From an uncultured Bacilli bacterium (GTDB lineage: Bacteria > Bacillota_I > Bacilli_A > RF39 > UBA660), in NCBI GenBank assembly GCA_944329445.1, contig CALVIH010000011.1, positions 1 through 34,986 on the forward strand: a stretch of DNA of 34,986 bases, in the 5' to 3' direction. The position numbers were made by a program, and so were the translations under genes. This document shows, in pieces, positions 21,647 to 31,184 of this stretch; positions within the stretch are counted from its first letter, which is position 1, and each line of letters starts with the position of its first letter. The notes under the pieces were generated by a model. The model saw only the letters and a list, made by a program, of their open reading frames with translations. It did not search any database and was not told the DNA's origin.

Positions 21647-21675
21647 TTGACATTCATTAAAAATATTGATATATT
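21647..21675 (+). promoter_or_regulatory. Promoter of the Val-Thr-Tyr-Gln-Lys-Leu tRNA operon
   Basis: TTGACA (21647-21652), 17-base spacer, TATATT (21670-21675). The first tRNA begins about 30 bases after. Confidence 0.75.
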
Positions 21676-21704: not shown

Positions 21705-21781
21705 GGATGCTTAGCTCAGTTGGTTAGAGCACCTGCCTTACAAGCAGGGGGTCATAGGTTCGAGTCCTATAGCGTCCACCA
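21705..21781 (+). tRNA. tRNA-Val(UAC)
   Basis: A complete cloverleaf of 77 bases. The acceptor GGATGCT pairs with AGCGTCC, the anticodon loop is CTTACAA (anticodon TAC), the T-loop is TTCGAGT, and CCA is encoded. Confidence 0.95.
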
Positions 21782-21826
21782 TTTATTTTTGCCGAAATAG
21801 CTCAACTGGTAGAGCAACTGACTTGT

Positions 21827-22446
21827 GGGATAGAATATCTTTATGATTACTTGAACTATCTTGCACCTTAATTAGGAAACTAGTTAAGTGGACGTCGCTA
21901 ATTCGGGGAACCCTATAGCAAAGGAGATTTATGAATTGTTTAAACTGTTCTAAAAAAATACCTAATAATAAAAAATATTGTGATAATTCATGTCAAAAAC
22001 AATTTGAATACGAATTATATATTATTAAATGGAAATTAGGTGCCGAGAATGGTTTGAAAGGAAAATATCAAATTTCTAATCACATAAAAAAATATTTATT
22101 TAACAAGTATAATAATAAATGTTCAATATGTGGTTGGAGTAAAATGAATCCTTATACTAAAACAATTCCGTTGGAGATAGAACATATTGATGGTAACTAT
22201 CTTAACAGCAAAGAAGAAAATCTCGTATTGTTATGTCCTAATTGTCATTGTTAACCGCTATTTATAAAGGAGCGAATAAAGGCAATGGTCGAAAGGATAG
22301 AAAGCAATACAATTTGTATGGCAATCCCGAGCTAGGTTTAATACCGAGTGTAGAGACTTTATACGATGGGCCTAAGTCTTAAGATATGGCTAAGAGAAAG
22401 TCCAGACTACAAACACGTAAGTGGTAGTGAAAACTATAGTAGTATG
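21827..22446 (+). ncRNA. Group I self-splicing intron (IC3-like) in tRNA-Thr(UGU)
   Basis: A 620-base intron with the sequence order of bacterial tRNA group I introns. P1: exon TGT plus GGGATAG (21824-21833) pairs with CTATCTTGCA (21856-21865), giving the required U-G pair at the 5' splice site. P2: CTTAATTAG/CTAGTTAAG with GAAA loop (21867-21888). P3: CGTCG (21893-21897) with CGATG (22364-22368). P4: TTCGGG (21902-21907) with CCCGAG (22326-22331). P7: GACTTT (22355-22360) with AAAGTC (22397-22402). The intron ends in G before AATCAGT. By eye it matches the cyanobacterial tRNA-Leu intron core closely. The HNH frame sits in a peripheral loop, probably L5. Confidence 0.95.
21931..22382 (+). pseudogene. 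Frameshifted HNH homing endonuclease inside the intron
   Basis: The first open part (21931-22254, 107 residues) starts with AAGGAG eight bases upstream. It has an N-terminal zinc-finger pattern (CLNC, then CDNSC) and an HNH nuclease: CSICGW, EIEHIDGN, NLVLLCPNCH. It stops just after PNCHC. In the -1 frame, from TTA at 22251, coding resumes without a gap as LTAIYKGANKGNGRKDRK, the usual continuation of HNH proteins (NCHSLTPTYKG...NKGNGRK), and runs to a stop at 22380-22382. One lost base, probably T in a TGTTT run, explains this. The restored protein would have about 150 residues, and its tail would overlap the P4', P7, P3' and P8 parts of the ribozyme. Confidence 0.85.
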
Positions 22447-22490
22447 AATCAGTAGGTTGCGGGTTCAAGTCCTGCTTTCGGCACCACTTT

Positions 22491-22574
22491 GGGGAGATAG
22501 CGAAGTGGCTAAACGCGGCAGACTGTAAATCTGTTCCTTAGGGTTCGGTGGTTCGAATCCACCTCTCCCCACCA
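22491..22574 (+). tRNA. tRNA-Tyr(GUA)
   Basis: An 84-base class II tRNA with a long variable arm. Acceptor GGGGAGA pairs with TCTCCCC, the anticodon loop is CTGTAAA (anticodon GTA), and CCA is encoded. Confidence 0.95.
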
Positions 22575-22582
22575 CTTAAGAT

Positions 22583-22657
22583 TGCCTCGTCGCCAAGTGG
22601 TAAGGCATCAGACTTTGACTCTGACATGCGCAAGTTCGAATCTTGCCGAGGCAACCA
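22583..22657 (+). tRNA. tRNA-Gln(UUG)
   Basis: 75 bases. Acceptor TGCCTCG pairs with CGAGGCA, the anticodon loop is CTTTGAC (anticodon TTG), and CCA is encoded. The U1-A72 pair is usual for tRNA-Gln. Confidence 0.95.
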
Positions 22658-22673
22658 CTTTATTTAGTAGTAT

Positions 22674-22749
22674 GTCCTGTTAGCTCAGTTGGTAGAGCAT
22701 TTGACTTTTAATCAAAGGGTCATGCGTTCGAGTCGCATACAGGACACCA
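22674..22749 (+). tRNA. tRNA-Lys(UUU)
   Basis: 76 bases. Acceptor GTCCTGT pairs with ACAGGAC, the anticodon loop is CTTTTAA (anticodon TTT), and CCA is encoded. Confidence 0.95.
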
Positions 22750-22750
22750 C

Positions 22751-22839
22751 GCCCGAGTGGCGGAATTGGTAGACGCACAGGACTTAAAATCCTGCGAGTG
22801 TTAAACCTCGTGCCGGTTCAAGTCCGGCCTCGGGCACCA
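22751..22839 (+). tRNA. tRNA-Leu(UAA)
   Basis: 89 bases with a long variable arm. Acceptor GCCCGAG pairs with CTCGGGC, the anticodon loop is CTTAAAA (anticodon TAA), and CCA is encoded. This is the gene that carries the classical cyanobacterial group I intron, but here it is uninterrupted. Confidence 0.95.
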
Positions 22840-22848
22840 CTTGAAATT

Positions 22849-22877
22849 AACTAACCTTTAAGGTTAGTTTTTTTGTT
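22849..22877 (+). terminator. Terminator of the first tRNA operon
   Basis: AACTAACC pairs with GGTTAGTT around TTTAAA, followed by T's. Confidence 0.85.
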
Positions 22878-26218: not shown

Positions 26219-26294
26219 GCTTCAATAGCTCAGTTGGTAGAGCATCCGGCTGTTAACCGGCAGGTCGTAGGTTCGAGTCCTACTTGAAGCGCCA
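26219..26294 (+). tRNA. tRNA-Asn(GUU)
   Basis: 76 bases. Acceptor GCTTCAA pairs with TTGAAGC, the anticodon loop is CTGTTAA (anticodon GTT), the discriminator is G73, and CCA is encoded. It has its own promoter and terminator. It is the likely effector of the T-box about 900 bases downstream. Confidence 0.95.
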
Positions 26295-27101: not shown

Positions 27102-27174
27102 TAAAAAACATAAAAATTACTATTTTTGTTATAAAATATAAAAAATATGATATAATTTAAATATAATTTATTTT

Positions 27175-27420
27175 TACTTGCGTTGATAAGGAAAAGTAAT
27201 TAAATAATTCTTAAAAGAGAGCTAGTGATGGTGGAATACTAGTAAGATAGTTTAATGAAAGAACACCTTGGAGCATCTTACCGAAAGAAATTCAAGTAGG
27301 CTAAGACGGAAGATAACCCGTTAAAGTATCATAAAGTGACTATTATTTATTAATAGTAAACTGGGTGGTACCACGGATATAAACAGTTATTCGTCCCTAT
27401 GGGATGGATAGCTGTTTTTT
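27175..27420 (+). ncRNA. T-box riboswitch, specifier AAC (Asn)
   Basis: A T-box leader with Stem I features: AAGGAAAAGTA, AGAGAG and a distal loop GATGGTGG closed by CTAGT/ACTAG. The specifier is AAC at 27262-27264, in GAACACCTTGGAGC, where the codon normally precedes ACC. The T-box is GGGTGGTACCACGG (27363-27376), and a terminator follows. Uncharged tRNA-Asn should stabilise the antiterminator and turn on the operon. The bulge is TGGT, which would pair best with an A73 tRNA, while the tRNA-Asn in this window has G73 (a G-U pair). The promoter is uncertain: TATAAT occurs at 27151 and 27162. Confidence 0.88.
27381..27420 (+). terminator. T-box regulated terminator
   Basis: AAACAGTTAT then TCGTCCC pairs with GGGATGG then ATAGCTGTTT around loop TAT, followed by T's: a 17-bp stem with a few G-T pairs. 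Confidence 0.9.
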
Positions 27421-28188: not shown

Positions 28189-29442
28189 ATGGATGAGAAA
28201 AAAAGACGTTATGCTAACTTTTTAATAACAAGATGCTTATCCATGAACGCTAAAGAACCATTATTAATAGGTTATATAACTGAGCAAAAGGATTTTGTTA
28301 ACATAATAAAAGAAGAAGCAGAAAAACTTGGTATAACAGAAATATATGAAATTGAAAGTAATAAAGAAAGAACAAAACAAATTTTAATTGATTCTACCAT
28401 CGAGGAAATAGAAAAAGAACCTTATTTTAATAGAAAGATAATAAAAGAAGTATATGATAAAGGTGGTTCATATTTATCTTTAACGTCGTATAGTAAGTCC
28501 ATATTAGATGATGTTGTAAAAGAAAAGAAAAAAGCTATGAATAAAATAAAAGTTGACACGCAAGAAGACGCGGTAGCAGCAAGAGGGGTTTATAAATTTC
28601 CGTGGTGTATAGCAGCCGTAGCAACAGATGAGTGGGCAGAAAAATTAAATCTTAGTTCAGAAGATGAATTATGGGACATTATTTTTAAAATTACGTTGAT
28701 GGATAAAGAAGACCCAGTTAAAGCATGGGATGATAAAATAAAAACAAATACCCAAAGAAGAAGCTTATTAAACGATTTAAAACTTTATAAGTTAACATAC
28801 AAAAATAGTTTAGGAACGAATTTAGAAATAGCACTTCCAAAGGACGTAATATGGTGGGGTGCGGCAAAGAAAAGCTTCGATGGTGAAAAAGACTTAATAG
28901 TAAACATGCCAACCGAGGAAGTATATACAACTCCGGATAGAAACAAAGTAAATGGCATCGTATATTCTAGTAGACCACTCGTTGTTAAAGGAAAAATAAT
29001 AGATGAATTTAGTCTAACTTTTAAGGATGGAAAAGTAGAAAAAGTTTGGGCTAGTAATAACGATGAAGAATTATTAGGATTAATTGAAGAGTTTGATGGT
29101 ATGAACTTTCTAGGAGAATGTGCTTTAGTAGATTATGATTCACCGATTTCTAAAACAAACATGATTTTTAATTCAACTTTAATTGATGAAAACGCATCAT
29201 GCCATCTAGCATTAGGTAGAGGATTTCCTAAATGTATCCCAAACGGAGAAGTGATGAGTGATGAAGAATTATTAGAAAATGGAATAAACAGAAGCAAAAA
29301 TCACGTTGACTTCATGATAGGAACAAGCGATTTAATTATAAAAGGAACGGATGTATATGGTAATGAAGTACCAATATTTGTAGATGGTAACTTTGCTGAG
29401 GAAAAAATAAAAACGTTTTTAAAAGAAAGGAATGATAAATAA
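28189..29442 (+). CDS. M29 family aminopeptidase
   Basis: A 417-residue metallo-aminopeptidase of the AmpS/PepS (thermophilic M29) group, which removes N-terminal residues from peptides in the cytoplasm. Recognisable motifs: MPTEEVYTTPDR, FLGECALVDYDSPIS, DENASCHLALGRGF and KNHVDFMIGTSDL, which together hold the Glu, His and Asp metal ligands. Length is normal. AAGGAGG precedes the ATG. It overlaps aspS by one base (TAATG). In a T-box(Asn) operon, it may supply amino acids from peptides when Asn-tRNA is uncharged (inference). Confidence 0.92.
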   Translation: MDEKKRRYANFLITRCLSMNAKEPLLIGYITEQKDFVNIIKEEAEKLGITEIYEIESNKERTKQILIDSTIEEIEKEPYFNRKIIKEVYDKGGSYLSLTSYSKSILDDVVKEKKKAMNKIKVDTQEDAVAARGVYKFPWCIAAVATDEWAEKLNLSSEDELWDIIFKITLMDKEDPVKAWDDKIKTNTQRRSLLNDLKLYKLTYKNSLGTNLEIALPKDVIWWGAAKKSFDGEKDLIVNMPTEEVYTTPDRNKVNGIVYSSRPLVVKGKIIDEFSLTFKDGKVEKVWASNNDEELLGLIEEFDGMNFLGECALVDYDSPISKTNMIFNSTLIDENASCHLALGRGFPKCIPNGEVMSDEELLENGINRSKNHVDFMIGTSDLIIKGTDVYGNEVPIFVDGNFAEEKIKTFLKERNDK

Positions 29443-31184
29443 TGAGTACGTATAGAACAAATACATGCGGAGAGTTAACACTAAAAGATTTAGATAAGAA
29501 AGTAACATTATCAGGTTTCGTATCAACCATAAGAGACCATGGTGGAGTTATGTTTGTTGATTTAAGAGATCATTACGGAACAACCCAAATTGTCGTACAC
29601 GATGATGCAATGCTTAAAGGTGTGTCAAAAGAAACCGTAATAAAGGTTACTGGTGTTGTAGTTAAAAGAGATGAAGAAACGATAAATAAAAAAATTGAAA
29701 CTGGTGAAATAGAAGTAGTTATAGATTCACTTGAATTGTTATCAGATACTGCTAAAGTATTGCCGTTTGAAGTAGATGAATCTAAAAAGGTATCAGAAGA
29801 TGTTAGGTTAAAGTACCGTTTCTTAGACTTAAGAAATCCAAAGGTTCACGAAAACATTATTACAAGGTCAAAAGCATTTAACTTCTTAAGAAATAAGATG
29901 CAAGAACTAGGCTTTCTAGAGATTCAAACACCAATCCTTACCTCATCATCACCAGAAGGTGCTAGAGACTTTATAATTCCATCAAGGAAACATAAAGGGA
30001 AGTTCTATGCACTTCCACAAGCACCACAACAATTTAAACAATTATTAATGGCATCAGGCTTTGATAAGTACTTCCAGCTTGCACCATGTTTTAGAGATGA
30101 AGATGGTCGTGCTGACAGACTAGTTGGAGAGTTCTATCAATTAGACATGGAAATGGCCTTTGCGGACCAAGAAGACATCATGAAGGTTGCCGAAGACGTA
30201 TTTCCAGCATTCTTTAAGGAGTTCGGTAAAAGACGTGTAACAAAAGGACATTTTAAAAGAATTCCTTACAATGAGGCAATGCTTAAATATGGTACTGATA
30301 AACCAGATTTAAGAAACCCACTTGAGATAATTGATGTATCAGAGGTATTTACCAATACTGAGTTTAAACCATTTAGAGGTGCGATTGTTCGTGCGATAAA
30401 AGTAGATGACATAGCAACAAAACCTAACAGCTGGTTTAACGAAGTTGTTGATTATGCTAAATCAATTGATATGCCAGGTATTGGATACATCAGCATAATG
30501 GAAGATAAATCACTTAAAGGTCCAATTGATAAATTCTTAACTGATGAAGATAGAAACGCATTATTTAATAAAGCTGGTTTAAAAGAGGGTAGCGTACTAT
30601 TCTTTATCGCTGATAAAAGAAAAGACGTTGTAACAAGAAACGCTGGCTTAATTAGAACTGAGTTAGGTCGTAAGCTTGACTTAATGGATCATAATTTATT
30701 TGAATTCTGTTTTATAACTGATATGCCAATGTATGAAATAAGTGAAGTAACAGGTAAGTTAGATTTCATGCACAACCCATTTAGTATGCCACGCGGCGGA
30801 GAAAAAGCATTGGATGAAAAAGATCCTTTAGAAATATACGCAGATCAATTTGACGTTGTATGTAACGGTGTTGAGTTAGTATCAGGTGCCGTTAGAAATA
30901 ATCGTCCAGAAGTATTAGTTAAGGCGTTTGAAAAAGCTGGTTACACTGAAGAAGATATAAAAAGTAAGTTTAACGCATTATACACGGCATTTGGTTATGG
31001 ATGCCCTCCACACGTAGGAATGGCACTAGGAATTGATCGTGCACTTATGATGCTTTTAGAAGAAGATAACGTAAGAGAAACAGTTGCGTTCCCATTAAAT
31101 CAAAATGGTGAAGACGTACTTACTGGTACTCCAAATGAAGTTACTGAATTACAACTAAGAGAAACTCATATTAAGTTAAGATAA
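29442..31184 (+). CDS. aspS: Aspartyl-tRNA synthetase, probably non-discriminating
   Basis: A 580-residue bacterial-type class II synthetase. The N-terminal OB domain binds the anticodon, motif 2 is FRDEDGRADRLVGEFYQ, a GAD insertion lies in the middle, and motif 3 is GMALGIDRALMMLL. In the OB domain the residue that is Leu in E. coli (RDLG) is His33 here (RDHG). His at this place, with loss of the nearby Lys (here RDEETIN, where E. coli has RDEKNIN), is the known mark of non-discriminating AspRS, which also charges tRNA-Asn with Asp. GatCAB downstream would then amidate Asp-tRNA-Asn. Regulated by the Asn T-box. Confidence 0.96.
   Translation: MSTYRTNTCGELTLKDLDKKVTLSGFVSTIRDHGGVMFVDLRDHYGTTQIVVHDDAMLKGVSKETVIKVTGVVVKRDEETINKKIETGEIEVVIDSLELLSDTAKVLPFEVDESKKVSEDVRLKYRFLDLRNPKVHENIITRSKAFNFLRNKMQELGFLEIQTPILTSSSPEGARDFIIPSRKHKGKFYALPQAPQQFKQLLMASGFDKYFQLAPCFRDEDGRADRLVGEFYQLDMEMAFADQEDIMKVAEDVFPAFFKEFGKRRVTKGHFKRIPYNEAMLKYGTDKPDLRNPLEIIDVSEVFTNTEFKPFRGAIVRAIKVDDIATKPNSWFNEVVDYAKSIDMPGIGYISIMEDKSLKGPIDKFLTDEDRNALFNKAGLKEGSVLFFIADKRKDVVTRNAGLIRTELGRKLDLMDHNLFEFCFITDMPMYEISEVTGKLDFMHNPFSMPRGGEKALDEKDPLEIYADQFDVVCNGVELVSGAVRNNRPEVLVKAFEKAGYTEEDIKSKFNALYTAFGYGCPPHVGMALGIDRALMMLLEEDNVRETVAFPLNQNGEDVLTGTPNEVTELQLRETHIKLR

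Follow-up and report, generated by a model that had tools for sequence, protein, structure and literature searches.

A split tRNA-Thr(UGU) gene in a tRNA operon

The window (the whole stretch of DNA analysed, 34,986 nucleotides of a contig from an uncultured Bacilli bacterium) carries six tRNA genes in a row, Val, Thr, Tyr, Gln, Lys and Leu, between a probable promoter and a probable intrinsic terminator (Table 1). Promoter-like sites in the region are no more numerous than in shuffled sequence, and the site was called a promoter because it is placed ahead of tRNA-Val, not because of the site count. The second gene of the row, tRNA-Thr(UGU), is interrupted. Its two exons join to a 76-nt tRNA-Thr(UGU) including CCA with a 100% match, and the intron lies between positions 36 and 37, directly 3' of the anticodon, as the sequence-only reading of this DNA had proposed. 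The split gene was not detected by ARAGORN in the window; in intronless relatives the same program finds an uninterrupted tRNA-Thr(UGU) at the same place, and the query positions up to 45 and from 666 onwards (window 21826/22447) are contiguous there. The gene is uninterrupted in most of the 145 same-family genomes searched. Since many genomes of the family, one of the same genus (G089) among them, carry the uninterrupted gene, the boundary 21826/22447 is a comparative fact, exact to the base and not deduced from the fold. The intron model gave no match in the four other sampled genomes of the genus, G089 included. The tRNA-Leu(UAA) gene of the cluster is uninterrupted, as had been noted, and an intron of the same class lies in Leu(UAA) of two other genomes of the family (G370, G217).

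Table 1. Features of the tRNA operon and its intron, in window coordinates
Feature	Position	Strand	Basis or remark
Probable promoter of the tRNA operon	21647..21675	+	TTGACA, 17 nt, TATATT; TG ahead of the second hexamer; 11/12 consensus matches
tRNA-Val(UAC), first gene of the operon	21705..21781	+	ARAGORN; Rfam 74.6 bits
tRNA-Thr(UGU) 5' exon, 3' end is anticodon U34-G35-U36	21791..21826	+	100% match to spliced tRNA; intronless homologues join here
Group I intron, 620 nt, G first, G last (omega G)	21827..22446	+	Intronless alleles, covariation, R1
P1 5' strand, intron part, GGGATAG	21827..21833	+	Sequence; A1 pairs
P1 3' strand; guide GCA (21863-21865) pairs with anticodon UGU	21856..21865	+	Guide triplet varies with host exon
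P2 hairpin, GAAA loop (L2) at 21876-21879	21867..21888	+	7/9 pairs doubly changed
P3 5' strand CGTCG, partner 22364-22368	21893..21897	+	Compensatory changes in 3/5 pairs; 100% paired
P4 5' strand TCGGG, partner 22326-22330	21903..21907	+	Invariant; paired 11/11
HNH endonuclease frame in L5, 107 aa, interrupted	21931..22254	+	Weak Pfam HNH and treble-clef matches; intact homologues
P4 3' strand CCCGA	22326..22330	+	A1
P6 and P6a	22331..22349	+	P6a: compensatory changes
P7 5' strand GACTTT, partner 22397-22402	22355..22360	+	Invariant
P3 3' strand CGATG	22364..22368	+	A1
P8 with 11-nt GAAA receptor: CCTAAG (22371-22376), TATGG (22385-22389)	22369..22391	+	Sequence; L2/P8 types change together
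P7 3' strand AAAGTC	22397..22402	+	A1
P9 domain, GAAA-capped hairpin 22424-22437	22406..22443	+	Compensatory changes, three helices
tRNA-Thr(UGU) 3' exon including CCA	22447..22486	+	Match to spliced tRNA
tRNA-Tyr, Gln, Lys, Leu(UAA), none interrupted	22491..22839	+	ARAGORN
Probable intrinsic terminator of the tRNA operon	22849..22869	+	9-bp stem and T tail

A search of the organism's own genome (assembly 95% complete; 36 tRNA matches, six without a locus of their own) found no second tRNA-Thr(UGU), and the only other Thr genes among the tRNAs read were Thr(GGU) and Thr(CGU). Under the usual wobble rules ACA is then readable only by the interrupted tRNA, so that correct splicing is needed to read this codon; an organism living with its sole Thr(UGU) gene split in this way would argue for splicing that works.

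Elsewhere in the window, a tRNA-Asn gene lies at 26219-26294, a T-box leader (27174-27401, 147 bits) precedes genes for an alpha/beta hydrolase, an M29 peptidase and an AspS-like class II tRNA synthetase with a GAD domain, the last of these at 29442-31184.

Fold, guide and tertiary contacts of the ribozyme

All intron elements drawn by hand in the sequence-only reading are present: P1 with 10 pairs and the U36-G wobble, P2 with its GAAA loop, P3, P4, P7 and the terminal G. In the window, exon U36 faces G21863 at the 5' splice site, and the last base of the intron is G22446. The canonical structure with its P3/P7 pseudoknot was counted, without prediction, on an alignment of 11 related introns from which reading frames had been cut out (A1). 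In A1, 98.3% of the pair cells are kept, changes on both sides occur in 23 of the 58 pairs, and the covariation score was reached by none of 500 shuffles; when partners were slid by 1-3 columns, pairing fell to 29-43%. P1 of the Tyr rows was misaligned by MAFFT, and the P1 pair counts hold for the Thr rows only. P4 and P7 are invariant and paired in 11/11 introns, that is, conserved without covariation to judge them by. The group I fold is thus proven by covariation over 11 relatives, the pseudoknot helix P3 included.

Three structural alternatives were rejected. The 3' exon shows almost no P10 beside the guide, and a five-base complement between the P1 loop (21844-21848, TGATT) and AATCA of the 3' exon is lacking in relatives and was put down to chance. 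A consensus pairing proposed by RNAalifold, of the P7 3' strand with a GGAC before P3, has no compensatory changes, whereas the pseudoknot P3 has them. Subgroup IA had come first to mind because phage introns often belong to it; J7/3 is 3 nt long here, and P7.1/P7.2 are missing.

The search with the Rfam Intron_gpI covariance model (RF00028) that had been suggested as a check gave a divided answer. The model found no match in the window, in its genome or in six relatives; among members of the class, it matched the tRNA-Arg intron of a phage (L034) end to end over model positions 1 to 253, with 47.8 bits (E 3.8e-9), just short of the cut-off of 50. The same phage intron is matched with 59.7 bits by R1, our home-made model of the intron's 3' half, which gives 141 bits at 22323-22446 in the window, itself one of R1's 11 training rows. 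R1 further matches nearly all of the 80 named-genome loci, the 25 viral contigs, and others; the 80 loci were fetched with a 19-base core pattern that selects for similarity, and counts over them are not a census. Since L034 is found by both models, the class is tied to the known group I family, and since, in addition, the P3 of the pseudoknot core covaries, the missing RF00028 match was not taken as a refutation. The assignment of the insert in tRNA-Thr(UGU) as a group I intron is therefore supported by core covariation and by the RF00028 match of a class member.

The guide follows the host exon. Where exons end in UGU (Thr, Tyr, Asn), the guide is GCA in 64/64 placed introns; where they end in CUU (Leu, Arg), it is GAG in all 10 placed; and the Lys exon CUCU meets GGAG. 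No swap of guide and exon occurs among the introns placed automatically, the remaining ones not being placeable that way. Likewise, L2 is GAAA where P8 contains the 11-nt receptor CCUAAG/UAUGG, and a P8 that forms a plain helix with UCUU/AAGA goes with GUGA, GCAA or GUAA in L2 (Fisher p 2e-8, uncorrected for kinship; several apparent exceptions stem from loose text matching of UCUUAA). In P5, relatives have the receptor variants UCUAAG/UAUGA and CCUAAU/UAUGG, and the receptor of the window copy has diverged. Guide, L2 loop and receptor, which change together, make the class a natural ribozyme series.

A host site in the tRNA anticodon loop, a short J7/3, and L2-P8 and L9-P5 tetraloop-receptor contacts (the P5 receptor being diverged in the window copy) are features of subgroup IC3, and on these sequence features we assign the architecture to group IC3, Azoarcus type. 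The Azoarcus IC3 ribozyme has two GAAA/11-nt contacts in its crystal structure (PMC3494683) and a 3-nt guide (PMC6274277). Like this intron of tRNA-Ile(CAU), the one described here is an anticodon-loop intron with a 3-nt guide, a U-G pair at the 5' splice site, a terminal G and, with its altered P5 receptor, the same L2-P8 and L9-P5 GAAA/receptor contacts as the small Azoarcus intron; it differs in its host (Thr, in another phylum), its HNH gene in L5 and the lack of an RF00028 match.

Hosts, endonucleases and phage relatives

Exon joining places introns of this class in Thr(UGU) between positions 36 and 37, in Tyr(GUA), Lys(CUU) and Asn(GUU) between 35 and 36, and in Leu(UAA) and Arg(UCU) between 34 and 35, the Asn intron being in a phage-like tRNA array. 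Named records with the class comprise uncultured Bacilli and Clostridia, Gammaproteobacteria (Thr introns with the splice junction TTTGT/AA, set by eye), one Alphaproteobacterium, Omnitrophota and the isolate Ruminococcus albus 8 (Leu). The model search was positive in 24/386 genomes of the window's family, 11/395 of its class and 5/392 of its phylum sample, nearly all positives being of the window's family and those of the family being scattered over genera. The earlier statement that such introns are rare in Bacillota was too strong, given these 24 genomes and many Clostridia. As a side observation, a tRNA-rich phage-like contig (G362:C82; L078, L084, L085), from a genome with 8% contamination, contains three intron-model matches, one of them in tRNA-Asn(GUU).

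In other genomes of the family, related introns with or without a reading frame lie in the same tRNA gene or in the neighbouring tRNA-Tyr. Both genes are split in one genus (G045, G179, G343), and the near-identity of the two cores suggests gene conversion or a recent spread between neighbours; some cells thus have two neighbouring tRNA genes each split by near-identical ribozymes. Adjacent split tRNA-Thr and tRNA-Tyr genes with near-identical cores and differing P1 regions were seen at L005, L064, L065 and L142, an apparent case of concerted evolution. Parsimony gives 15 changes of host tRNA on an intron tree that is weak (129 columns, 47 open forks) and good for broad statements only.

A gene that had been overlooked in the sequence-only reading lies in L5, the loop of P5. 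The frame in the window contains CxxC pairs and an HNH motif ending in LLCPNCH, followed by a stop, and the conserved C-terminal part of its homologues continues in another frame to about 22340; the break may be either decay or a sequencing slip. The intact homologues (136-139 aa) reach or come close to the Pfam HNH threshold, and with pS 0.55-0.86 versus pN 0.16-0.25 they are under purifying selection. Their frame extends into P4 and P6 of the ribozyme core, and ORF-less relatives at the same site (L006, L007) keep the same core. In Bacilli, the Tyr introns encode an enzyme of another family, Pfam PDDEXK_5 (3.6e-18), in the P1 loop. An IStron was rejected as an explanation of the insert, whose 620 nt hold the HNH frame only and no IS transposase.

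The same partners occur in phages. The viral contig L039 has an intron of this class in tRNA-Thr(UGU), at the same site and with an HNH gene that shares 70% identity with its counterpart in a relative (L002), in an array with 13 further tRNA genes and a tmRNA. Free-standing phage homologues of the HNH have Thr(UGU) as the nearest tRNA in 19/32 loci and another tRNA in 13/32. In loci with at least three tRNAs, Thr(UGU) is nearest in 11, against 3.4 expected for a random tRNA of the same locus (P about 1e-4, to be read as a guide only, with the related contigs L244/L257, L248/L249 and L254/L255 counted separately). In Enterococcus phage iF6 the distance is 13 nt; Raoultella phage Ro1, Klebsiella phage B01 and Synechococcus phage DSL-LC03 are further examples. 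By the model, two exceptions aside, no intron of this class lies in the Thr(UGU) neighbourhoods of the free-standing HNH genes. The PD-(D/E)XK enzyme has three phage homologues, two of which lie near tRNA-Tyr(GUA), 13 and 84 nt away (L272 1501-1857, L274 1501-1851). On a further viral contig (L246), an intron of this class was seen at 1911-2012, with an HNH homologue about 490 nt further on.

Proposed mechanism, alternatives and known systems

The explanation that we hold, as a whole, to be highly probable is a group IC3-type self-splicing intron in the sole tRNA-Thr(UGU) gene, with an HNH-mobilised ancestry and a composite origin. In a genome-reduced, uncultured Bacilli species of the gut with the intron in the anticodon loop of its only tRNA-Thr(UGU), the 3-nt guide GCA of the pre-tRNA would pair with the anticodon UGU, so placing a U36-G pair where the RNA is cut. 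A guanosine held by P7 would attack 3' of U36, and the freed U36 would then attack after the terminal G, joining U36 to A37 and restoring the anticodon loop. L5 would once have held an HNH homing endonuclease, the frame of which is broken in the window copy. The intact enzyme of relatives most likely cuts the intronless tRNA-Thr(UGU) gene, a specificity suggested by gene neighbourhood, and repair would copy the intron in. As to its origin, the composite is probably the product of an insertion, in which a free-standing phage HNH gene, one already directed at tRNA-Thr, moved into a ribozyme seated at the same site; phages whose tRNA arrays are large could plausibly have carried it, in the direction of transfer that we infer.

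A relic that no longer splices, in a dead gene with ACA read by another tRNA, would agree with the broken HNH frame. We consider it very unlikely, as the ribozyme core is intact, the exons form an intact tRNA within a complete operon, and only GGU and CGU Thr genes accompany it among the tRNAs read; a second Thr(UGU) copy missed in the 95% complete assembly is possible but unlikely. The assembly is of metagenome type, with 59 contigs, and an insert that is an assembly chimera or part of a contaminating contig might be suspected; yet this has a negligible probability and is refuted, since independent genomes of other genera and of Clostridia, from several studies, carry the same insertion at the same base with the tRNA gene order conserved.

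Instead of a homing endonuclease for tRNA-Thr, the HNH protein could also be a maturase that assists splicing, or an unrelated passenger. The frames of intact relatives that run into the ribozyme core, and the 13 of 32 phage loci with another tRNA nearest, fit such a role, which is nevertheless rather unlikely: the ORF-less introns L006 and L007 keep the same core, so that splicing at that site can do without the protein, and the free-standing homologues favour Thr(UGU) neighbourhoods which, with two exceptions, are without an intron of the class. Vertical inheritance from an old Bacillota ancestor with many losses, in place of movement between genomes, would explain Thr introns at the same site in Bacilli and Clostridia. 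We judge it improbable, because only 24 of 386 genomes of the family have the intron, scattered over genera, four other sampled genomes of the genus are without it, and a phage has a Thr intron; moreover, on the few columns available, the gammaproteobacterial Thr introns fall together with phage Leu introns, apart from the Thr introns of Bacillota. 

On a wider proposal we hold the balance to be even: tRNA genes may be a place where mobile introns are assembled, in that free-standing phage endonucleases specific for one tRNA gene (HNH for Thr-UGU, PD-(D/E)XK for Tyr-GUA) would have entered IC3 ribozymes seated in that tRNA's own anticodon loop, and phages that carry tRNA arrays would have brought the composites to cellular tRNA genes in several phyla.

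In the literature read, the bacterial tRNA introns on record sit in Leu(UAA), fMet, Ile(CAU) and Arg(CCU) genes, and the organisms are cyanobacteria and proteobacteria (PMC4033280, PMC8450103, PMC5733544); the sequence-only reading had named the same four as classical hosts. 'Introns' of 22-49 nt have been given for Arg, Gly and Lys tRNAs (PMC5733544), in our judgement too short for group I. In line with the claim that no Thr(UGU) case is well described, a full-text search of open-access papers and a minority of preprints returned no earlier Thr or Tyr group I tRNA intron. Provisionally, the class in Thr, Tyr and other tRNA genes is thus unreported: IC3 tRNA introns as such are known, and what is new lies in their hosts, in the partnership with an HNH and in the phage pairs. 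The cyanobacterial and plastid tRNA-Leu(UAA) intron likewise belongs to group I and interrupts the anticodon loop of a tRNA that is essential, and members of the class share its site between positions 34 and 35; the intron of the window, in contrast, lies between 36 and 37 of Thr and is mobile-type, patchy and in Bacillota. The Synechocystis tRNA-fMet intron with I-Ssp6803I resembles it as a group I intron of a tRNA gene that brings an endonuclease of its own, whereas the Thr introns carry an HNH in L5 and not a PD-(D/E)XK enzyme. PDDEXK_5, found in the Tyr introns of the class, we take to be the family of I-Ssp6803I.

Collaborative homing in phages, for which PMC3984707 cites Zeng 2009 and Bonocora and Shub 2009, starts from a free-standing endonuclease already adapted to the site at which an ORF-less intron sits; recombination at a later stage then yields a mobile intron (PMC3984707; PMC2988022). 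A free-standing HNH beside an uninterrupted Thr(UGU) gene is, by analogy, the arrangement predicted for mobile introns built from pre-adapted endonucleases. As in that system, a free-standing phage endonuclease stands at a gene which elsewhere, in different genomes, is split by an intron that encodes a homologue of the enzyme; here, unlike there, the presumed target is a tRNA gene and the pairing, judged by gene positions, occurs twice (HNH/Thr, PDDEXK/Tyr). SegB of T4 is also a free-standing homing endonuclease gene within a phage tRNA array; it differs from the HNH in belonging to the GIY-YIG family and in cutting a tRNA intergenic region, with no intron (PMC2988022). With each of the two endonucleases present both inside introns and free-standing in phages, natural enzymes are at hand for a direct test of how mobile introns are assembled. 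The class is frequent in gut Bacillota and is missed by Rfam and by tRNA finders, and essential tRNA genes therefore look absent in annotations.

In a review of 2014, the phage introns then known were all in protein genes (PMC3984707). Besides L039, introns were observed in phage tRNA genes of L034 (tRNA-Leu and tRNA-Arg) and of L036, L040, L042, L044, L045, L048 and L052 (tRNA-Leu), some phage tRNA introns having HNH-type endonuclease frames of their own. A phage tRNA-Arg annotated at 286 nt (OR578706.1, 84823-85108) has a group I intron inside. A similar intron 3' end lies at 66787-66838 of the crAss-like phage cr111_1 (MT774387.1, L236), between genes for a GIY-YIG endonuclease and the replicative helicase, and probably belongs to a protein-gene intron with a related core.
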